From: Pseudopyrenochaeta lycopersici | Taxonomy: Eukaryota; Ascomycota; Dothideomycetes; Pleosporales; Pseudopyrenochaetaceae | DNA: 64,000 nucleotides | Direction: 5' to 3' | Assembly (NCBI GenBank): GCA_003313425.1 | Contig: NHZP01000008.1 | Coordinates: forward strand, 1,364,001 to 1,428,000 | Shown here: in pieces, positions 510-30,308 of the stretch | Layout: each line of letters begins with the position of its first letter | How positions within the stretch are numbered: the first letter of the stretch is position 1 | The notes under the pieces: generated by a model | What the model was told of the DNA's origin: nothing | Seen by the model: only the letters and a program-made list of their open reading frames with translations | The model's database searches: none | Translations under genes and position numbers: made by a program

Positions 510-1735
510 GGCGGCGTGGTGCGAGGTCGTCTCCAGGCGCGGCGCCGGAGAGGCCTGGCGGATGGCAATCGGCAGCGGCGACGATTGTGGAGGGCGGGAC
601 AGGTCGCGCAGAGGCCTGAGAGCTGTACTGGCAGGTCCCCGGCGATGGGGTCGCCGGGTGGTGGCGGCGATTAGGCGCTTGCTGGAGCTCCGCGTCGCTC
701 GTCCATGCCAGATGCAAGATGCACTGCGTGTGCTGAGGTTGTACAAGAGAGCAGCGCAGGCAGCCCACGCGATGTTTGCGCCCTTGGGAACGGCGTTGGC
801 GGCTGGTGAAAGAATTTGTGTGGCTTGCGTCGGGACTTGCGGAAGAATGTGCCTTATCGGCCACCACAGGAGCCTTTACCAGAAGCCTCCCACCACCCAG
901 AAGCCTCCCATCGCTAGTGCTGGCCAAGGAGACCGTTGCACAACCCGCCAGCGTCCAGATGCTGTCAACCTGATCCCCTCGCTAAACCCTCCTCGCTGGC
1001 TTCCGAACCCGCCGTGAGCCCTGGCCAGAGATGGACTTGCATCTCAGACGCTGGTCTGACCGAGCGGCACCGCTCTCTACCAAGGTAGCCCATCTTGCCT
1101 GCTGGCTTGCCGACCTTGCTGCTGCGGGAGACGACAGGCTAAAATACGCATGTGGAAACTAAATACGATGAGGCAGTTCGTCTGGATCCCGCTAGCAAGC
1201 CGACCCAACCCAATCTCTCTCTCTCGTCACCGCACGGAAACCTGTGTGGCCCAATGTAGCTGTCATGTTCAGCAGAAGCTTCGCTCAACATGGGTTCGCC
1301 GCGGCATGAAAGCCACTGAACAAATTCATCAAAAACGCCAGCGTCACGCCGCCAATGACGGCCGTAGAAGACCATGGCTTGATTTCCACACAGCCGTCTA
1401 TTTCCTGTAGCGCACTTTGCAAAGGTACCAATATGTCGAGTGCCTCCGTAATTGCTGTCCAGGCGACCGCCTGCCAGCCCGTTACGCCTTCCCAGTGCAG
1501 CAGACCCATAATTCAACACGGCTGACTATATCACCACCACGCGTCGCCCTCCCTCACCTTCTCCACGCCGTCAAGAGTCGACTCGCTCAGCTTACCACAA
1601 TACTCGACTTGCACCTATCGCGCGGAACCCCGGCCGGCGCCCGCCAATCATACGCCAAACTGTCCAGGACCGCTTGCCCCTGCTAAACCACAACCGTACA
1701 CCCGACCGAGATCGTCGCCGTTGCTCTCTTTGGTA
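510..1735. other. Intergenic region between divergent genes
   Basis: This is probably the 5' leaders and promoters of the minus-strand gene at 509 and the plus-strand gene at 1736. It holds one 74-codon minus-strand ORF (1285-1509) with a hydrophobic C-terminal part (AVIGGVTLAFLMNLF), which could be a small membrane peptide but has no other support. A tRNA-like stretch around 1040-1080 does not fold into a cloverleaf. Confidence 0.5.
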
Positions 1736-3296
1736 ATGGCGCCCAGCGCAGACCTAACAGCGCATCCCCCGCCTGCACGAATACCGAAGCTCAAGTACAG
1801 AAATCCGCTACCTCCCGATCAAACCTCGCTATCATCTCAACTCTCCCACGACCCTGGAACTGGTCGTTTGCACTCCCAAGACCGCCCCACCACTCCGGAC
1901 TCCAGGGCCACTTCGACCTCTTCTCGACCATCTTTCGACAACGCCAGCCTGACGTCACCCAGCCTGGCTTCCACGGCCTCGAGCGCGACATCCTCCAATG
2001 ACTCCAAGTCATCGAAAAAGAAGAAGAAGAAGAAGACGGGCTCCATGCTCGGCTTTCTCTCTCTGAAAGAACCGTCACAGGTTGCCTTGGACCAATTTGC
2101 CGAGCATCAACGCAAGCAGGCTGCCAGCAAGGGCACCTCATCGCCATCCTCAAAACACAGCGGCAACTTTGCTGGCAAACCGCTCCCTTCAAGTGTGCCA
2201 AAAGTCAATTCAAAATGGGACGGCATTCCAGATGTAGTCAAAAATCGTCACTCCGCGTCAAGTACAACGAGCAAGGACAGAAGTAGCTTGTCATCCGCGG
2301 GATCACTGCGCACCCAACTCAAGGCTAGCCCTTGGAATGATTCCAACTTATCCGTATTGACCGACGGCTCACGCAATCCTCCAAATTCCATCGCATCAGC
2401 CGCAAGTTCGGTGTCAGATGTCACCATAGACGACCCCGTCAAAGATCCACAGTCTATCAATACGCTACCCGAGATGTCCTACTACTTCCCAGACTCCTCT
2501 GCTATGTCTGGTGCATTACCAACAAGCCCGCTGGAAGTGGACACTTTCCACGACTCTATCGCTGGTCCACCACCTAGGGTGCCAGACTCAGCACACGACG
2601 AAGTCGGGAGCCTGAGAGCAGACTCTCCAGCTTCATCAACAGATTCTGTAGACACAATTGTCAGAGACACTGCCGAGGCCATTTTCAAGAAGCTGAATGA
2701 CCAACCCCACCAGAGTCTTTGGGGTGGAGATTCACTCGCAGTCCAATCAATAGACGAGAGCAAGTTGGAAGACGTTCCAGATTCACACGACTTCTTGTTT
2801 GGACCTCCATCCACTGGTGAGACACCAATGAACAGCCCGCCCGTGGCTATACCAACCGTTCCACACTATGTGCCTACACGGCCAGTCCAAAACTTCAGTC
2901 GACCCATTGCGCACAACAACTTTGCGCCAACAGCCCATCGGCCCTCAACATATCGGTCAACACCGTCGAGTTCAGCGCTCCCCACCTTATATGAAGCCTC
3001 AATGGCCAGTACAGAATCCCTCGATACAGTGCAAAATGACAGTGATACACACTCCATCGCACCGTCATCTATTGCTCCGTCTGAGTTGTCTGGGCATTGG
3101 TACGAATCTCCTCGCGAACGGTAAGCGTCCAAGTACGAACTGCTTGTGAGACATGTACTAATTCGGCATCAGACTTGGTCTAGGTGGACGTCTTCGCATG
3201 AACGACGTTCTGCCATGGGACAATCAAGGAAATTCGCTAGGTAAGCCCAAGAAAAACCGTTTATCGATGTTTGGGCGAGGCGTGGCGAGAACGTGA
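1736..3296 (+). CDS. Ser-rich protein with a poly-lysine tract, function unknown
   Basis: Two exons, 1736-3120 and 3173-3296. The 52-bp intron has a GTAAGC donor, a perfect TACTAAT branch site and a CAG acceptor. Ignoring the intron, the frame ends right at the splice site. The spliced protein is about 502 aa, dominated by Ser/Pro/Thr and probably disordered. A run of Lys from AAG/AAA codons lies near residues 94-100, followed by a hydrophobic GSMLGFLSLKEPS segment. The second exon adds a conserved-looking basic tail (ESPRERLGLGGRLRMND ... MFGRGVART). The poly-Lys run could be a nuclear localisation signal. An upstream in-frame TTG exists at 1721, but ATG 1736 is the natural start. I do not recognise the family. 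Confidence 0.75.
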
Positions 3297-5867
3297 CCTA
3301 TGTGGGAAGGTTGACCGCCAAACTAACTTTCACCGCGTAGCGTCTCATGATCGCCAAAGTTGATCGTCACTTTCTTGTACATTAATGTGCGTTCTTACGC
3401 CATTTAGCGCGCCCCAGCATTTGTTTTGCTCTTAGAAGTCATCCTTTCCGGCAAAACGCCGGAGGCCTGCTCTTTACTTGTAGATACCCCTGTTTACCAC
3501 CGCGGAGTCTTTCGCTACGCATCTCATTTGTATTATGGATCACCACGAATTTCTTTGCATTGGCATGCTCTTTGCTGTCAATAAAATATCTGCATATGTA
3601 ATTTGGAAGCAGTTATGCCCACGTCAGCTGCGGAAATTGGTCCGACTCTGGGCTGAGAGCCTCATATTCGGTCTGTCAGTGCATGCACAGTTACAATCAC
3701 AAATATCAGTGCGGTACGAATCAAGCGATCGTGCGCAATATGTTCTCATTGAATCTGCGCGCTCTTTGCATGTTTGTGAGTTCCAACATGCAAAATTTCG
3801 GAACTTTTTCTCAGACCCATGTCTGATCCTTTGATCGATCGTCCTTACCCCACATGTACGCATCCATGGATGCGTAGGCCGTCGCCCTAACTTGCAGGAT
3901 CGCACCTCGAAAAGGAATCATCCCGAATCGGTCGAAACCTTAATCACTCGGTCCTCGGTTAGTGCACCATTATACTACTTGGCCTAGCAGCGTTTTGCAA
4001 CCTATCATTCTCGACCAAAGGGAGAAAAAAAAATCCCTTCTGCAGATCATCTATTAGTCCAGCCCAGCCCAATTACCGCGCTGCTATGCATGTTGACCGA
4101 CGGACAGGAGAAATTAGGCCCGAACGCATTTAGTTCAGCTACGAGTCCACGTGTTGCCCATTCTCGGGGTCGAGGACGTGGCGAGCGTGCTTTGGTGTTC
4201 GCCAGCTCCATTCGGGGTTTAGCCGGATCGACAGAGCTATTGCGAGTCTAGTAGTACTTACCGACATACGCGAAGCCCTAAACTGCAGACTAGATCAATG
4301 AAACACGAGGAGCCACGCGACGTGATGGAAGATCGACAAAGGCCAAAGGCGAGTGCCGCGACCCTGCAGCAGTGCGTTTGACAGATGGTCAGATGGAAGG
4401 TCTTTCGAAGAATGTATGACTCGTAGTCTGCATGTTCTGGCGATGGTCGTCTACAGATTTCTCGTACGCTTGCAAAGTATGTTCTGGGCCAGTCGGGAGT
4501 GGTGTCGCCAGAGTCGGCACTCTGCATTAAACGGCGTTTACAATGGCGCACATCGAGTAGGCCTAGCATGAGGAGAGGAAAGAAGGCATGGGCATTGTCA
4601 CATGTTTCTACAACTCAGTCCATGCTCAGCCCTCGTGGCCTCCTAGACATGACGGTTTGCAAAGCGTTTAACGCCCCAAGAATATGTAAGCGTCATCAAG
4701 TCTCGTGACTTGAGGTATCAACGTGCACTAGCTTTGAAGGTCAAGGAGTTGGAGAGGTTAGATTGAGATGGGGACAGATAAATCCAGTCTGACAAAGATC
4801 AGAGTAATGAGCGTTCAAAGAACGCTAGCTATGAGCAATTACTTGATCGCACCAGCAACGCGCATGATCTGATGACTCTTGCCTTTTCCCTTTCCTCGGT
4901 GCCCGTTGATGAGCCATTGTCCACAAGGAAAGAGTCCAGTGGGGATAAGTAATGGTAAAGCGTTTAGCGCAAAGAGATGAGATGGGTTCATTGGTACATG
5001 GATAATAACGCTACTTCTGGCAATGAATATTTCCCTCCTGTCACCTCAGCAACAGCGCGGGTGTCTCACAATCGTGTTTCAAGTGACATATGGATGGATG
5101 GGTGGCGTTGACGCTGATTCAATGTTTCCAAAACTGCTAATGAGAAGATAGACCGGTGTACGCTTATCGAAGACATGATTCCCATGGCAGTGAGCATGTT
5201 TTGGCCTTGAAGCTTAAGAATAGTGATTCATGTACTTTCAGAAAATTGATGACGATACATTGATGATGGGAAAGAGATCTATGGTAGAGGAAACAAGATC
5301 AGTGAGAGTGCCATTGTAGGTTTGTTTGTATGGAACGCACTAGCACGCTATTTCAATAGTAAGACTCTATTCTCGTTCTTTTAATCTAGGGAAGAGAAAA
5401 ATTGGGGTGAGAAACAGGATAGCTAAAATGAGAGGCGAGACATGTAAACACCTTACATGTTAAAAGGATTTAGCGAGTCGAAGGACCAATTGACCAGTTA
5501 AATTGGATTCTCTCGAACTTAACTTTTCGTAATTGACTTTGACTCTTCCTAATCTTTTCCCCTGTCGTCAAAAGCGAAGTTTACGTAGCGACTGGCAATC
5601 TGGCGATGGTATTGACTTATGCGCAAGGTAGGATCTTGAGCCACAAGGACAGGATGGTTCTTAGATGGGGCTATATATGCCCAAAATGTGGGGCGAAGTG
5701 TGTTTTAAGAGAGCAACAATACTAATTGTAACGACAACATGGTCAAAAGGCCAGAGGCACATGAAAGGAAAAGTGATTCATTTCAAAACTCCAAAATCCA
5801 TTGACCAGTACAAACATTTTCGCCATTAAGTTCCACTATATAGCTGCCTTGTTCATTCTCAACACAT
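3297..5867. other. Gene-poor intergenic region, 2.6 kb
   Basis: No ORF above about 100 codons has protein-like composition, and no spliced model was apparent. The two convergent flanking genes would place their 3' UTRs here. No repeat, transposon end or tRNA was recognised. Confidence 0.5.
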
Positions 5868-20923: not shown

Positions 20924-22125
20924 TCAATAATAGAGAAAGACCCGTGTCTCTATGCTCTCTCTCGGTCTTTCGCCAGCCAAAGTTTTCGGGTTCCGAAACC
21001 CAGCATGCGGAACACCTTTGTTGTCATATTAGCTATTTTACCCTCCGAACTCGACTCAATTGGATTCACATTCCGAGCATCAAATTATAAAAACTCAACG
21101 TACCTGTCCCACATCCGTCTTCAGTATCTGTCTGCCGGAACAAAATTACCTCGCTCGCCAACTGCTCGCTCAGGTAGCAAAACTGCATACCTTCATGGAA
21201 GTACACTTGGTAATTCTCGGTAAATCCATCTCGCTCGACAACGTCTGTAGCTATGCAGTCGCGGGCTACGGAGATGGAGCGGGAGTCGCAAATGGAGAGT
21301 GGCCAGTCGGTGAGTGGGCCATAGAGTGGTTTCCATATGCTATTGATTGGTGAAGAAAATTAGTCGATGTGCTTGGGGGCAGAGACCAAGGGGTGATTGG
21401 TGGCTGGAGTGGTCTCTAGATCAGATTCGACGTACTTGAGAGTCTGCATTCTTTTGTAGGATGATGGGTCGACTTTTAAAATCTGGGAACTCGTAGCGCG
21501 AGCAGCAACAGGTGTGAAATCTGAGACGTAATTAGCAACTATCAGCATGATCCAAGCCTTACAGGAACGTGTTTCTCATCATGAATACTGGCAGATGGAC
21601 CTACCGATATGAATGATAGATGTGGGCTGCAGATACTCATAATCTTCTCCAGTTGAGATTGGGAAATCTTCATGGCGCTTCCGAATCTGAACAAATGCAC
21701 ACCGTGGTTAGCGTATTAAATTACTGAACCTTATATCTCGTTCCTATGCGCTATTAGGGTTTAAAGGAAGAACAACCCACGCCATGTTCCAACACTTCGA
21801 CTCTACTCGCCCCAAGCGATCGTTTAAGCAATTCTTTTAACTCGTCATAGTATACGCTCTTTACCCTCTCTCGGTCGTGAAATTCTTCCGGTGTCAGTCG
21901 GGATTCCAATTTGAGGACTTGGAATCCATTTTTGTCGAGCGTGTACTCGGACTCAGTCCCGCGAATATCATGAATCAGGACATCATTCTGAGTCTGAGTC
22001 TTGCAGTTTGTTCTTGGGATCGCGTCCCCGGGATTATAACGCAACCGATATGGTTTCTCGTGAAGATATTTTTCATCGGGTTCCAGGAATATGAGCTCTG
22101 TTAGAACGTCGCCTGCTGCTGGCAT
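20924..22125 (-). CDS. AsaB/CmcJ-like hydroxylase or methyltransferase family protein
   Basis: Five exons on the minus strand: 21781-22125, 21605-21686, 21436-21520, 21104-21339 and 20924-21015, giving 279 aa from MPAAGDVLTELIF. Family landmarks appear in order across the exons: EKPYRL, NDVLIHDIRGTESEYTLDK, FQVLKLESR, EDFPISTGEDYEYLQPTS, NIWKPLYGPLTDWPLSICD, ILFRQTD, GVPHAGF and the ending RPRESIETRVFLYY. This matches the family that includes Aspergillus AsaB and the cephamycin CmcJ protein; many members sit in secondary-metabolite clusters, but the exact reaction is usually undefined. An in-frame ATG/alternative start at 22233 would add 36 residues. No other biosynthetic gene is in the window. 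One donor is GTGGGT. Confidence 0.85.
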
Positions 22126-22831: not shown

Positions 22832-23038
22832 TTACTTGTCCTCCTTCTCCAGAGATATCAAACGCGCTCCAGAGGCGGTACCCTCCAACTGAATTGTTTC
22901 GCCCTTCTGGAAGCCGTGTTTTTCGCCAATTGCGACAGGTGTTTGAGGCGGCCAATGTGCCTTCCAGGGCTGGATTTTAGGCTCAGTGGGAGGGACAGAT
23001 TGATTGCGGTTTTCGCTTTGGTCTTGTTCGGAAGGCAT
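22832..23038 (-). CDS. Small hydrophilic protein, 68 aa, unrecognised
   Basis: Single minus-strand frame from ATG 23038 to TAA 22832. The product starts MPSEQDQSENRNQSVPP, has an unusual Trp/Pro stretch (IQPWKAHWPPQTPVAIGEKHGF) and ends RLISLEKEDK. The Trp-rich middle and balanced composition look more like real protein than the opposite-strand ORFs. A 5' exon could be present upstream. I do not recognise the family. Confidence 0.45.
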   Translation of the reverse strand: MPSEQDQSENRNQSVPPTEPKIQPWKAHWPPQTPVAIGEKHGFQKGETIQLEGTASGARLISLEKEDK

Positions 23039-23475: not shown

Positions 23476-26400
23476 TCATCTCGACCAAAACACGATCAAT
23501 CGATCAAAATCTACTTCCCGGACCTCTTCGCATCCAATCACTTCCTGCCCCCGAAGCTCGTGATACCATTTGACACTTTCAGCCAACTCTCTATCTGCAT
23601 CAGCAAACCGCCCTGCTTGCCGTAGTACCTTGCTTTTGCAAAACTTCGCGCGAGCAGTCTCAGCCTCGAAAGCGCCGTCAAAATTGTGGTAGATGTGAAT
23701 AGCCTTGTCGACAAGATCTCTGCGAAATTGTTAGCCTTGCTCATTTTTCAAGAGATGATCGAAACCCTTACAATGCTTCTACCAATTGGCCAAGTCTCAT
23801 GAAATGTCTCGTGATTCGAATAAATGCATCTGCTGTTCGATGATGTGCACTTCCAAGTGTATTTCGGTAATGATTCAAAGAGCGTTGATGGTATTCTAGA
23901 CTGAGGTCGTAGTTTTCGATTGATTCATATACATTGCCGAGAGTGTAGAGGAAACGACCAGTGCTAGGCAAGGTCAGTAAGGATTGTCCGAGCGCGAATA
24001 GAAACTCACATAAAAGACTCTTGATCATTGTATCCGAACTTCCTTTCTCGGTCGCAAAGCCCCTGAGAGAGGATGTCGAGCGCTTCGGTGTATCGCTCTG
24101 TGAGCCAATAAACCACTCCAAGGTTTACACCGGGTAGTGAAATCTGCCAGTTTTCATAGTTGTCTAACTTCTCCATGCTGGTGATAGACTTCTCAAAGCA
24201 CTCTTCTGCATTTGCATAATCGTCGCGAAGCATGTAGGCACATCCAAGCTCATTGAATGATAGAGCGAGACGCATATCGATTCCAGGTCGTTTGCCACCC
24301 AGCTCTTTCATCATCATTGCATTGAAAGTCAAAAGGTAGTCGAGAGACTGGTCGGGTCGGTTGATTTCATTTGCCATAACGCCACGATTGTGGTGAATTT
24401 CAGCAAGGATGTTGTCGATGTCTCGCTCTTTTGGAATGTGGGGCTGCTCATCGTCTAGAGGCAGAGGATAGAACTTCTTGAGTTCGTCGCAGAGTCTTTG
24501 AGCTATACTACTAAACACATCTGACTCCACCTCTCTTCCACGTTCGTGGCAGTACCTATCCTGTTAGAGATTTGGAAAAAAGTACACGAGCTATGAGAAC
24601 CTACCATCCGCAGTCACACCATAAGCGGGCATACAAAAATGCACCGTACAAATGATACTCGGTAGTCTGTATATTCGAGGAGAGGCGGCGCAAGCGGATG
24701 ATGTGCGGAAACAACTTCAACCTGTTAGTTCCATACTAAAGATAAAACTGCAATGGCGCAGGCTGTTACCTCTTCACATTGCGGCCATCTTGAAATACCA
24801 TGTCTCCACGTAAATACGTGAAACGGCCTGTTTTTCTTGTAAGTATCTTATTTATCAAGAATTTTCTGGGAGTGCACACACCACTGAGCAGAAAGGAGAA
24901 GGACACAAGTATTGAATACGTCCCTCGAGTATATCGGGCTCATTTGTTTCCTCACTGCATCTTGCACAATTCTGTGGATGAAGATAGTTGGTGATGTAGG
25001 GCTCCACGTAATTATGCTGTATTTGAGCAGCTCCTGTAGGGCATCGTGTAGACCTGATTGGGTCGTCGGATACCCTTGTATGAACACGTGTGGGGAGTCG
25101 CATAGTAGGATTCGTTCAGGGATGTTGTCCGGATCAAGCATGGAGAGGACATCAAGCAATGGCCGTGAATACTTTAGGCTCTCGAAAGCGGCTTCGAGGA
25201 AGGAGTGCTCTTCGGCGACCACGAACCTAGCCAACTCTCCTCTCATTCGCGTTTGTAGTTTCTTGTTCTCACGAGTATGGTTTTGCGCAAGAAATTCACT
25301 GAAACTCAGGCCTTCTCCTAGGATCCACTTTGTCAAGTGTTGCAATGCGTATGGCACGCCCTTGACCTTCGCGCTTATAAGACTTGCGCATTGTTTTTCT
25401 TCTGATGAAACGCCATTTTCAAGATGACTACACATAAATTCGGCCCCTTCCTGGGGGTCGAAGCGGTCAAGAGTCTTGGACGGATATCTCTCAGGAGGCC
25501 AAGGCATCGATCGCCGGCTTGTTATTAGAATCGCACCACATTCCCTTTCAGTGGGCCAAAATTGGTCGAGCACAGCGGACTCAATGACGTGATCGAGAAC
25601 GAGAAGCCAATTTGCTCTCTGAGAGCTAAGTCCGGGTTTGAAAGATTTTGCAGGGTTTCCAAGCCAACGCTTGAAGAGTTCTCTGGTCAAAGCTTGATCT
25701 CCTGAATCGGCAGATGAATTATCTACCAGGCCTAGCCGAAGAGTGATTCGGTTTACGTCTTCAATCATTTTCGAGGCTTCGTCAGCGTGGACCCAGAAGA
25801 CCGCGTCGAATTCTTGCATATGTCGATACACAAATTCAACTGCTACTTGAGTTTTGCCGATCCCTGCTGGCCCATAGAGACTACATGTCTTGAGAGTACT
25901 TGCTAGTTGGCTTGTTCCTTCGGTATCGGCGTTTCCAGAGCAGAGCTGGCTTTCAAGAAATTTAAGAGCATCCTCCCGGCCGAAGAAATCTTTGTTTCGT
26001 TCCAACGGCATGTAAGTGCAAGGAAGAGACGGTTCTTTATTGGTACTCCCAGCAAAAGCCATCTCAACATGGTATTTCCGTACAAATGAGGACAGAACCC
26101 CATCAAATTCTTGACCTTTATAAGGATCACGAACATGCTCAACGAAGTTCCATTCATCGTCATCATACTCTTCTGGTTCAGTATCATAGTCGTTGAAAGT
26201 GAGTTCCCCTACCTCTTCTGCGAGGTTTCTGTGACTATTGATACGTGGTGTATTATGCCTCTCCAATGCTTCACTGCTGGTGGTTTCGGTTGCTAGAGAA
26301 ACAGGCCTATCACTTGCAACGTCGCCATCAGTATCATCCAGCCAAGGTAATGAATAAGAGGCAATCAATAGGAGATGTGATGCGATGTGTTTCTGCATTT

Positions 26401-28056
26401 TCAATGCAAGAATTGATGAAGAAGGTACTTCGCCCAGGCCGCGGCTGGAATGCTGGGTACCCTCGTTGGGGCTTTGACCAAGAGATTCTATGGAAACATC
26501 GCACAGTGGACATACTTTGATGGGAATTGGATCCGGGAGTCCACGTTGCCGTTTCAGTAATTGTATTTGAGTGTCATTGAACTGTTTGCCCTGGGATTTA
26601 TGTTCTCTCAGGTGCGCCGCATACTCATCTCCACAGGTAAAGATCATCGTATTGTGACCCCTTGGATGACCGGGGAGACGACAAGACCATCTCATCGCAT
26701 GAGACCTTAAGTGAGTCATCCATGCGCTCTGGTCCCGAAATCTGGTATCTGGTTGGGAGCACTTTTCGAACACACATATGTATGGTTCGAGGTCTTTGAT
26801 CAGGTGTTGCCTTAAACACAATCAGCCTCTGAAAAAAGAGAATATGATAGATTAGGATAGCCTGGAAATAGCTACGCATGCTTCTTTCTGTATATCAGGG
26901 GTCGCGAGTTCGATTTGACAACTTTACATACCTCCACATTGTTTTACTCAAGACGCTTGTCGGGACCAGTTGGCAGCAGTAAGGACATTCGAATTGGGCT
27001 CTTGTGATGGGAATCTTTGGCGGAGGGGGAAACCGGGAATGGTCGAGAATGCTTCCAACTGATGTCCCGCCGACAGAACTAGCCGCTTTAGAAGAATTAT
27101 TTGGCTTGAATTGAGACTCTATGAATGTTGTAGCCTTCGCATTTGATTTTTGAGCCTGGGAATCGTGGTTGGTTCCATGGATGGAGGGCTCTGATACAAA
27201 CGGCACCGCTTTGGGTTCGGCATCAGGCACTATCGAGAAAGTCTGTTGCGTTTCCTGGTGAGATAATGATGGTCGTCGTTTTGGGGAACTGTATTCTCTA
27301 CCATGTAAAATATCCTGGTGCTTTCTCCGGAAAAGAAACAGCCTCCTTCGGGAAGCATTCGCCTTACTCAAACGGAGATGCAAATAACTGGCCGCACCAC
27401 GATAGCATTGTTGGACAATATCGAGGCTGAATTTCTCGAACTTCTCAATTACATCATGGCCAAATTCATCTCTAGGTTTGAAGTGATTCGCTTTGGAGGT
27501 CTGAGAAGCAATCCCTGGATGCCTGATGGCCTTGGCAAGGCGATGTAACCGATCAATGGCATCTCGCATGCGAATAAGGCATTCGTCTGCAGTCGGGGCA
27601 TCTGAATCGTCCGAGGAACCTGATTCTGATCCAAAGGTTTCCGATAAGTCATGGGATGTAGAAGATACGTGTGTTTTGTCATCTTCCTCCAATAGACGAG
27701 CGTCTTGTGCATCTTGTCTTGATTAAACCCAGTCAAACTATTTGAGAGGAACTGGGGGCCTTACTGTCTTGGATGAGTTCTGAAAGTTGCGAAATAGCTG
27801 TTCGAAGAATCTCAAGCTGAGAAATTACAAGCGATCGCACCTTCTCGCTCTCTCTCAACCGAAAGTCCAAAGAATAGTGATGTTTTGCAAACGTTCCGAT
27901 GTGCGCCGCCCATATTCTGAAGCGCGCGCGTTCTTCTTCTACTGCTTCCGCCAACTCTGCCCGGGCATTTTGCTGCCGCAATGCATCCAAAATTAACAAG
28001 GCTGTAAATTCATTATTACATGATTCCGCAACACTAGCGATCGTATCACGATCCAT
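23476..28056 (-). CDS. NLR-type STAND ATPase: N-terminal helical and C2H2-rich region, NB-ARC, TPR
   Basis: Eight exons on the minus strand: 27765-28056, 26932-27712, 24882-26810, 24770-24827, 24605-24714, 24010-24555, 23772-23963 and 23476-23719; all phases agree, giving 1383 aa. Residues 1-100 are helical (RFRIWAAHIGTF, LDFRLRESEKV); a linker and second helical segment (to ~250) follow. About 345-510 is a fungal C2H2-like cluster (CPYC...WRQHLIKDLEPYICVFEKC, HLRSH, CPLC...HIASH). The nucleotide-binding domain has P-loop GPAGIGKT near 671-678, FDAVFWVHADE, Walker B WLLVLDHV near 759-766, and GAILITSRR. The C-terminal ~300 residues are TPR-like helices (NRGVMANEINRPDQSLDYL, LGNVYESIENYDLSLEYH). 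Such proteins oligomerise on ligand sensing and drive heterokaryon incompatibility or other non-self responses. Three introns end in AAG. Confidence 0.9.
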
Positions 28057-28401
28057 TATTATGCTATGAAACGAATGTAGTTTGAAGCGCTGAAGAGCTG
28101 TGAAGGAAGAGATTGAAAGCAGGCAGATGCGAGTGGGGAATGGGTATATCACGAGTAAGGCTGAGCCGTGGAGTTGAAATCTCACGGGTATTGAAATGAG
28201 GGGTTAATTGACGAGTGAAGCAACGAATAAACGGCAGGGTTGTTCGTAAGGCAACGAGGCCGCATATGGACCGGTGAGCGCCCACTGCAAGCCTCCCTCG
28301 GGAGGTGTGCTTGATGAATAGCCTTCTTCCCCACCAAAACTCTGAAGTCAGTACCCACACTTCCCTTCCCTGTAGTTCCCAAGCCCAGTTCTATCTTAGC
28401 C
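28057..28401. promoter_or_regulatory. Bidirectional promoter region of the NLR / DUF7580 pair
   Basis: The 345 bp between the start codons of the NLR (minus) and the DUF7580/HeLo-like gene (plus) must contain both 5' UTRs and promoters. This spacing implies co-regulation. No factor-binding motif was assigned. Confidence 0.6.
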
Positions 28402-30308
28402 ATGAGTGGAGTCGAGATAGCTGGTCTAGCACTCGCTGTTCTGCCTATCCTGATCGCTGCTGCCGAGCACACAAAGTCAAGACTGGAGCCGAGACGAGCC
28501 GAGTTCATGGAGAACCTGGCCTTCGAGGTCACGATTCTTCAAATGAGCTTGACAAAACTGGCAAAAGGCCTTTCAGAGCTCCCTAACGATTTGCGAGAAA
28601 GATTATCGTCGCCGCAAGCTACACAAGACTTAGAGGCAGGGTGGAAGTCGAGCGAGGTGGTGCATGCACTCAAGACGCGGCTGGGCGCGGCACACGAAAC
28701 ATTTATTGTTACACTGGCGGCGACATTGGACTGTCTTGAGAGATTACTGGAGAAGAAATCGCTGGATCTGTCACACAATGAAGCAGTATGTGCTCTGTAT
28801 GAGCGCTCCATGAGGGTGCTGATTACGTCATAGATATTCGCAGAACATGCCTACGCCAAGCTCTACACAATCCGCGATAGAACCGCTTCAACGCCTATCA
28901 ACGCAATGAGCCGTAGGATACGATTTGCCATTCATGAAGGGAAAAAGTATAGTCAGATCCTGAGCAAGATCAAAGCAAACAATGAAAAACTAGAGAAAAT
29001 TGTCTTCTGGTCTTCAGATTCAATGTTTGAGACACCAGACCCAACTAAGGAGAGTCGTGTCGTCGGCAGCCCTCATATCGAGCTCCGCCCTTTGATGCAC
29101 ACGCTATATGCAGCGCTTGGAGGGTTGTGGCCATGTGATTGCCATCGTGCACATGAAGCTCGCCTTTGTCTTCTTCTCCAACAACGAGATCAGCGTCGAG
29201 ACTCTATGATGGCCGACCCTGGTGAAGTCAACAATGTGTACTTCAACATGCTTATGTCACTAAGTAGTGAAGAAAATAAGCCATATTGTCGCTGGCTTGA
29301 GAGTCAGCTATGTATCGCTCTTCAACAGTACGTCGCTCACCCTAACATCTCCCTACACATGTACTGAGCCGTGCCAACAGTGACACAACACCGCCGCGAC
29401 CACGAGGAGTTCACTTTGAAATAGATACGAATAATTCTCCAAATGACTCAGAAGGTGCTGTTGAGATGATCACAATATCAACCGGACCTACGGGGCCCGT
29501 GCTTCCTGGACGACGACGAGCGTCCACAGCAACCCGAATGAAAATTGAGAAACTCTGTCGCACAATTTTACTGGCCAACCGCAGCCAATGTTCACCGCAA
29601 ATCCTATTCGATGGAGGTTGTCTGTGGCATGTGACTAGTAGACAGTCGTCGCGGAGATTATCTCAGACATTGAATGTTGATGGTAACGAAGTAGACACCT
29701 CTCTCGCATCGCTGTTACGAGGTGAACGAAAGTTCAAACGAAAGGAGAAGCGCATACTATCCGTTATACTCGCCAACTCTCTGCTCCACTTCTGCGAAAG
29801 CCCTTGGCTGAGTAGGGAATGGAGCAAGGAACACATTTCTTTTTTTTCATCAGAGAAAGGGGGTTTGGATATTCGGCGACCCTATCTGTCGACTGACTTT
29901 CAGGACATGGAGCCCGAGAACGAGGCTGACGCTCTCTATCGGATCCATCCGAATCCCAGCGTTTTAGCACTAGGAATACTTCTTCTAGAGATTGAGATGG
30001 ACCTGCCCATCGAGCATGAACAAGGAGACGAAGACCTTGATGAGGATGGAAAACCCACTGTGAACACCAACTACTTCGCGGCGCTTAGAGTATTCGAAGG
30101 CATATCCGATGACATTTATCAGAATCATCGGCAGGCAGTGGCTGCGTGCCTAAATTGCGACTTTTACGATGAGGATGCGATGGAGCCAAGTCTGGACAAT
30201 CCTGAGTTTCGACAAGCAGTTTACAACAATATCGTGAGGCCATTGGAACAGGAACTGTACAGTGCCTACAACCTCACACCAGATCAATTAGGCCTCGACC
30301 TCATCTAG
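28402..30308 (+). CDS. HeLo-like/DUF7580-type protein, divergent partner of the NLR
   Basis: Three exons, 28402-28785, 28834-29327 and 29381-30308, give 601 aa. The start MSGVEIAGLALAVLPILIAAAEH is the typical opening of fungal prion-inhibition/HeLo-like helical domains. Helical sequence continues to about residue 290. The C-terminal part has features of the DUF7580, degenerate-kinase-like region: KRILSVILANSLLHFCESPWLSREW followed by ISFF, then IHPNPSVLALGILLLEIEM. No kinase catalytic HRD or DFG motif is present. HeLo-type domains in fungi can insert into membranes and kill cells when activated; that function here is inference from family and position only. The gene is divergent from an NLR 345 bp away. 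Domain naming is from memory of consensus, not a search. Confidence 0.8.

Follow-up and report, generated by a model that had tools for sequence, protein, structure and literature searches.

The window analyzed here is a stretch of 64,000 nucleotides of the Pseudopyrenochaeta lycopersici genome (contig NHZP01000008.1, positions 1,364,001 to 1,428,000; contigs are labelled C, and the window corresponds to C8:1364001-1428000). It harbors two intact genes in head-to-head orientation, one encoding a NOD-like receptor (NLR) of the NB-ARC-TPR type with a C2H2 module and the other a DUF7580 protein. Within the 62.7-Mb assembly (188 contigs) this partnership recurs, and its constant element is the C2H2 module together with DUF7580, not the NLR. 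Based on these results, the pair is proposed, with a probability of about 0.5, to represent a two-gene recognition and response unit that serves innate immunity or the recognition of non-self in fungi and in which the DUF7580 pseudokinase would act as membrane killer. The features of the pair are as follows (window positions):

23476–28056, minus strand: receptor gene, 1383 amino acids, composed of N-terminal helical module, C2H2 module, NB-ARC, DUF7779 and TPR parts
28056–27765, 27712–26932, 26810–24882, 24827–24770, 24714–24605, 24555–24010, 23963–23772, 23719–23476, minus strand: receptor exons
27300–28056, minus strand: N-terminal helical module, about residues 1–235, matched by the Nterm and mid profiles; intron 27764–27713 lies inside the interval, and the inner boundary is approximate
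26474–27053, minus strand: C2H2 module, about residues 318–470, split by intron 26931–26811, with profile matches on both exons
25319–25891, minus strand: NB-ARC domain (PF00931, E 3.3e-7, over the cut-off; genome search match C8:1389319-1389891)
24935–25189, minus strand: DUF7779 region (PF25000, E 1.3e-20; genome search match C8:1388935-1389189)
23476–24555, minus strand: TPR region with the C-terminal end FWSR (TPR_12, E 6.4e-17; TPR profile on three frames)
28057–28401: spacer between both start codons, 345 bp
28402–30308, plus strand: DUF7580 gene, 601 amino acids, exons 28402–28785, 28834–29327 and 29381–30308
28402–29064, plus strand: N-terminal helical region of the partner, residues 1 to about 205, with a hydrophobic first helix; intron 28786–28833 lies inside the interval
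29080–30260, plus strand: DUF7580 kinase-like domain, residues 211–586, without HRD and DFG; intron 29328–29380 lies inside the interval

In the spliced models, the eight receptor exons yield 1383 amino acids without internal stops and the three exons of the DUF7580 gene join cleanly to 601 amino acids. Both lengths, as well as the head-to-head distance of 345 bp measured on these models, equal those given in an earlier interpretation made from the letters of the window (hereafter the sequence-only reading). The spacer is presumed to act as a bidirectional promoter.

The receptor possesses the P-loop GPAGIGKT in its NB-ARC domain and, at its C-terminus, superstructure repeats recognized by TPR_12 and other TPR models, as is characteristic of nucleotide-binding fungal NLRs. 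A HET-type reading of this protein was rejected, since no HET match was obtained with Pfam. The N-terminal helical module contains ARFRIWAAHIGTFAKHHYSLDFRLRE and is backed by the helical structure model of the relative P0060. Regarding the C2H2 module, none of the C2H2 models exceeded its cut-off in the Pfam release used, which does not include the newer PF26082; the latter is precomputed for four of the five named close receptor relatives (all except P0034), and the Cys/His columns are invariant across an alignment of 11 segments. Foldseek searches with the model of the C2H2 protein returned zinc fingers first, the best match having an E-value of 1.0. Relatives of the receptor were identified in four named species at 54–75% identity, with P0034 aligning over only 70% of the query, and in Lineolata at 37%.

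The DUF7580 identity of the partner, as assigned in the sequence-only reading, is certain (PF24476, E 3.5e-47, residues 211–586, 162 bits at a cut-off of 27), and its nearest named relative, P0001 of Pyrenochaeta sp. MPI-SDFR-AT-0127, is 88% identical. The kinase-like fold without HRD and DFG, likewise postulated for the C-terminal half, was borne out by the structure model and by motif counts in 22 relatives: MLKL pseudokinase was among the Foldseek matches, DFG was absent from all 22 proteins, and searching the sequences for H[RG]D/HRN beyond residue 300 picked out one of them, while the aligned loop, inspected by eye, lacks HRD. The single DUF7580 sequence gave no sequence match to solved structures, and GldL, matched by the DUF7580 profile (E 0.012 and 0.2), was taken as a chance match. 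The first helix of the partner shows a mean hydropathy of 2.39 over 17 residues and is hydrophobic in 21 of the 22 relatives; N-terminal helices are predicted in the model of the orthologue P0001, but its residues 1–29 have a predicted local distance difference test (pLDDT) score below 50. Furthermore, a HeLo-DUF7580 protein encoded elsewhere in the genome (L044, 4055–6271, minus strand) carries the kinase-like loop HKDVNSSNIL and a Pkinase match (E 2.2e-4), which points to a kinase origin of DUF7580.

In order to evaluate the recurrence of the pairing, open frames surrounding the 14 other DUF7580 matches and one further receptor locus were searched with profiles of the receptor parts. Nine of the 15 DUF7580 matches in the genome lie head-to-head with a C2H2-module gene (window, C6, C52, C9, C18, C16, C68, C12 and C3), five are HeLo-DUF7580 fusions with HeLo over the cut-off (C27, C52:253467, C3:372301, C16:447136 and C2), and one, on C25, has neither HeLo nor a C2H2 partner. 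Among the nine is C3:786273, which remains below the DUF7580 cut-off (24.3 bits versus 27), and at C52 the C2H2 profile matches the first part only, together with the N-terminal modules. Thus, nine of the ten non-fusion matches face a C2H2-module gene. The reverse search with C2H2 segments retrieved ten genes, nine of which are the DUF7580 partners; this proportion rests on two query segments, both taken from paired genes. The tenth, C8:1324819, encodes a long C2H2 protein and was counted as unpaired: the N-terminal-module profiles gave no match in the stretch examined, and the 2.6 kb upstream contain no DUF7580.

All nine C2H2-module genes of the pairs start within 750 bp of a DUF7580 gene, compared to 0.003 of nine expected by chance. 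In the remaining eight pairs the start codons are 294 to 708 bp apart, the C9 value (554 bp) being based on the ATG at 3350 and the DUF7580 start codons at C52, C3, C68 and C12 being provisional. By comparison, NLRs were observed within 6 kb of DUF7580 at four loci (C8, C6, C68 and C52), versus about 0.6 of 15 expected from a density estimate that counts overlapping sets. The adjacency of any NLR was rejected as the relevant signal, as it covers four loci only and the C2H2 module covers nine. The NLR/DUF7580 pairing suggested by the sequence-only reading is accordingly real and recurrent, but its recurring element is the C2H2 module with DUF7580, and NB-ARC-TPR is one of several C-termini.

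These C-termini differ considerably between the pairs. NB-ARC, DUF7779 and TPR parts face DUF7580 only in the window and on C6, whereas the C2H2 partner at C68 bears HET and NPHP3_N/NACHT, that at C18 ends in ARID (8.3e-12) and that at C16 in BAG (2.8e-16). At C12, HET is encoded on the next frame in the orientation of the C2H2 gene. C-termini were thus assigned in six of the nine pairs, all except C9, C52 and C3; the 317-amino-acid C2H2 frame at C9 gave no Pfam match, and P0039, the nearest relative of this C2H2 protein, has a macro domain. In other fungi, proteins related through the C2H2 module bear macro, kinase, ankyrin-NACHT and HET domains, among others. On the DUF7580 side, C12 and C3 have subtilase (S8) frames behind the DUF7580 gene in the same orientation, which are presumed to form DUF7580-subtilase fusions; P0026 of Leptodontidium is such a fused DUF7580-S8 protein. 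Moreover, C9:948963, where DUF7779 is matched best in this genome, encodes an NB-ARC-DUF7779-TPR body that is similar but has a different N-terminus, without a C2H2 profile match and without a DUF7580 match nearby, which fits the view that DUF7580 accompanies the C2H2 module and not the NLR body.

The second complete pair, located on C6 (locus L033), shows the same module order, the FWSR end and head-to-head orientation, with 346 bp between the start codons. Its receptor is 26–41% identical to that of the window, depending on the region, and its DUF7580 protein 27%, and both pairs are therefore old. The distances separating the nine C2H2 modules correlate with those separating the nine DUF7580 proteins paired with them (BLOSUM-based, r 0.74, with 23 of 20000 relabellings reaching this value; percent difference, r 0.81, 4 of 20000). 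Four of the pairs include roughly modelled exons, which could raise the correlation for all nine, since badly modelled pairs look distant on both sides; for the five pairs with clean models r is 0.84, reached by 4 of 120 relabellings. Judged from these sequences, the C2H2 proteins and their DUF7580 partners diverge in parallel.

The tree of DUF7580 domains has several weakly supported deeper nodes, and part of its rows were roughly concatenated. The HeLo fusions, four of which were included, cluster in a single clade (support 0.999) with the C25 protein beside it (0.838), and this group adjoins the paired C16/C18 branch (0.988). Consequently, the paired genes do not form one clade, and the tree indicates that pairing is older than the HeLo fusions or arose more than once. 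In all six other species for which both proteins were retrieved, receptor and DUF7580 protein are encoded on contigs of equal size; in Rhinocladiella their locus tags are consecutive, and the linkage extends to a second class of fungi. The pairing is recurrent here and linked in relatives, so the objection anticipated in the sequence-only reading, namely adjacency in this genome only, does not apply.

Two further frames beside the window pair have counterparts at the C6 pair:

22835–23038, minus strand: 68-amino-acid open frame downstream of the receptor gene (tblastn E 3.6e-5, 39% over 36 amino acids against the frame beside the C6 pair)
21594–22089, minus strand: portion of an adjacent, unclassified gene that has a paralogue next to the C6 pair (tblastn E 1.4e-24, 40% over 104 and 61% over 31 amino acids)

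The copies on the C6 side were located at 1674–1913 (minus strand) and 595–1146 (plus strand) of L033, the small frames comprising 68–80 amino acids. No Pfam match was found for 21594–22089 in the frames scanned, and no tblastn match of either copy was obtained in the other 14 loci searched. Possibly, the C8 and C6 pairs belong to a four-gene block that was rearranged between the loci. At other loci, frames near the DUF7580 gene on C25 (L038, C25:407500-417400) resemble, by eye, a HET gene and a Tc1-type transposase, and an NB-ARC-DUF7779-TPR-like receptor without a DUF7580 neighbour (L047, 1837–4440, plus strand) has an N-terminus that appears lipase-like by eye, with no Pfam match.

The recurring partnerships with differing sensor parts suggest a reusable two-gene alarm-and-response unit. 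Receptor and DUF7580 protein very probably form one functional unit; a role of this unit in immunity or cell death appears somewhat more plausible than a role elsewhere, and less confidence still is placed in the DUF7580 protein as the killer. According to the proposed mechanism, the exchangeable C-terminus of the C2H2 protein (here NB-ARC-DUF7779-TPR) would sense a ligand and oligomerize. The N-terminal/C2H2 module would then relay the signal to the pseudokinase domain, akin to an upstream partner acting on MLKL, and the N-terminal helices of the partner would be released, leading to membrane damage and death of the cell or compartment. More broadly, a modular two-gene immune platform of Pezizomycotina is conceivable with roughly even odds, combining a helical/C2H2 adaptor and an MLKL-like pseudokinase of HeLo type as a fixed, head-to-head core, with sensors and outputs exchanged. 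If so, NB-ARC-TPR, HET-NACHT, HET, ARID, BAG and perhaps macro, kinase and ankyrin-NACHT domains would be plug-in sensors and subtilase an output, the interface of receptor and effector being conserved and recognition exchangeable.

Several observations weigh against this proposal. The HeLo-like opening of the partner, noted in the sequence-only reading, holds over the cut-off for five other DUF7580 proteins of the genome but not for the window copy (PF14479, residues 121–185, E 0.0069, 16.7 bits versus 23.2), for which the layout is only suggestive. HeLo is weakly present in six of 22 relatives (best E 0.00059). Assignment as HeLo via profile comparison was rejected: the N-termini of paired DUF7580 proteins versus those of four HeLo fusions reached 21% probability over 34 columns, despite an E-value of 0.001; the N-termini of C2H2 proteins, compared with the same four, reached 3.6% (E 0.012). 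Foldseek gave no match below E 0.001 for the DUF7580 model. The N-terminal module, matched in seven of the nine pairs (window, C6, C52, C9, C18, C16 and C68), had no profile match at C12 and C3, and ARID and BAG are atypical C-termini for cell-death receptors. Furthermore, ten named DUF7580 relatives of the window or C6 type (P0001, P0004, P0008, P0012, P0013, P0019, P0020, P0023, P0025 and P0031) yielded no receptor match, their receptor being missing, different or missed. One of these, P0004 of Phaeosphaeria sp. 0046c (contig 1568218), lies apart from P0056 (contig 1238421), a protein of macro type and the only C2H2-module protein found in that species. Finally, the N-terminus of the receptor may form a coiled-coil or HeLo-type bundle of its own, as the model of a relative hints, and could then be the killer.

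This last point leads to a guard or decoy arrangement, in which killing would be exerted by the coiled-coil-like bundle at the receptor N-terminus, with the DUF7580 pseudokinase as guarded target, decoy or inhibitor. The sequence-only reading had seen no obvious executioner at the receptor N-terminus, and a conserved helical module is in fact present there. For a relative's N-terminus the first fold row was the plant NLR coiled-coil domain (Rx-CC), tied with the unrelated IncA at a score below the tool's caution level, and such scores may be common for helical bundles. In this arrangement the pair would resemble the plant receptor ZAR1, which works with pseudokinases. Overall, this arrangement is considered rather unlikely. 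Still more doubtful is a non-lethal, regulatory function, with a C2H2 transcription or signalling scaffold co-regulated with the pseudokinase by a bidirectional promoter and the C-termini serving as inputs. It would accommodate the C2H2 module, the short spacer, the ARID and BAG ends and the macro, protein kinase and other C-termini of relatives. HET, NACHT, NB-ARC, subtilase and HeLo domains are typical of non-self recognition genes. Accordingly, the HET, NACHT and NB-ARC C-termini, the subtilase frames and the HeLo-DUF7580 fusions speak against it (typical features partly after PMC12881547, cited in part).

An amyloid relay of the HET-S/NWD2 type, with a prion-like motif of the partner templated by the receptor, would fit the adjacency of the receptor to an effector presumed to be HeLo-like, an arrangement that parallels het-S/nwd2 and HELLP/PNT1 (PMC12881547, in part). 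It is nevertheless highly improbable and was rejected, since no motif common to the partners rose above shuffles. In Smith-Waterman comparisons of receptor residues 1–120 with the partner's last 120 residues, none of six pairs scored better than shuffled sequences (58–120 of 200 shuffles scored as high), a result which also adds to the points counted against the membrane-killer proposal; with the partner's first 210 residues, a low shuffle count was obtained in one of the six pairs (Lineolata, 5 of 200). That the genes are functionless neighbours whose old linkage was retained by chance is equally improbable and, as far as sequence allows, refuted by nine pairs on nine contigs, by their parallel divergence and by the fact that such genes are linked in a second fungal class as well.

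Fungal NLRs are numerous, and few have a known partner. The genome-wide rule described here names partners for a whole receptor class at once and predicts amyloid-free linking of receptor and effector. No literature on DUF7580 was found in a search outside of which preprints and most subscription papers lay, and among the titles and abstract openings of the matches listed there was no description of a C2H2-module/DUF7580 pairing with exchangeable ends. Receptor-executioner clusters are already known in fungi; the C2H2-module/DUF7580 core with exchangeable ends would, judged from these matches, be a new form of them. It offers a fungal counterpart to the HeLo/4HB plus pseudokinase layout of MLKL, in which the NLR might occupy the place of RIPK3. 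According to a review, fungal HeLo/4HB proteins and the way they relate to necroptosis should be studied more widely (PMC12881547, in part).

For P. lycopersici (as Pyrenochaeta lycopersici), an expansion of heterokaryon-incompatibility genes and 42 NB-ARC proteins were reported (PMC4234444, in part); here, at least 44 NB-ARC, 86 NACHT and 152 NPHP3_N matches were counted genome-wide, the sets overlapping. Other receptor/HeLo neighbours were observed as well: a NACHT match (minus strand) and a HeLo match (plus strand) lie back-to-back within less than 2 kb at C5:1518010-1519747, in a HET-S/NWD2-like manner, and HeLo matches of another type of neighbourhood adjoin DUF7779 receptor matches at C15:246755-249038 (divergent) and C96:19601-23718.

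HET-S/NWD2 and HELLP/PNT1 of Podospora anserina are known fungal receptor-executioner clusters and resemble the window pair in that a nucleotide-binding receptor adjoins a presumed membrane-acting executioner; PNT1 is, like the window receptor, of the NB-ARC-TPR type (PMC12881547, in part). The adjacency characteristic of HET-S/NWD2 is found in the window (345 bp), the shared amyloid motif is not. Unlike in both clusters, the window receptor has an N-terminal helical plus C2H2 module, and the effector ends in a kinase-like domain rather than in a prion-forming tail. Gasdermin/S8-protease clusters are also two-gene cell-death units, about 80% of fungal gasdermins adjoining protease genes (PMC10197012, in part), and in this genome S8 frames lie behind two of the DUF7580 genes. 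The core of the window pair, in contrast, consists of C2H2 module and DUF7580, and no peptidase model matched either protein at E-values up to 1 (Pfam). Plant head-to-head NLR pairs and fungal head-to-head NLRs share the divergent genes and short spacer, whereas here only one of the two genes encodes an NLR; of the 225 two-NLR clusters in Sordariales, 13 are head-to-head, and DUF7580 is not mentioned in the main text, as far as cited, of that study (PMC12258605, in part). Some fungal HELL domains occur with kinase or pseudokinase domains (PMC12881547, in part). MLKL and plant MLKL-like proteins (HeLo/4HB plus pseudokinase) resemble the partner in layout, with a helical N-terminal part ahead of a kinase fold that lacks HRD and DFG. 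In contrast to MLKL, the window protein shows weak HeLo similarity, and its gene partner is a receptor and not a kinase.

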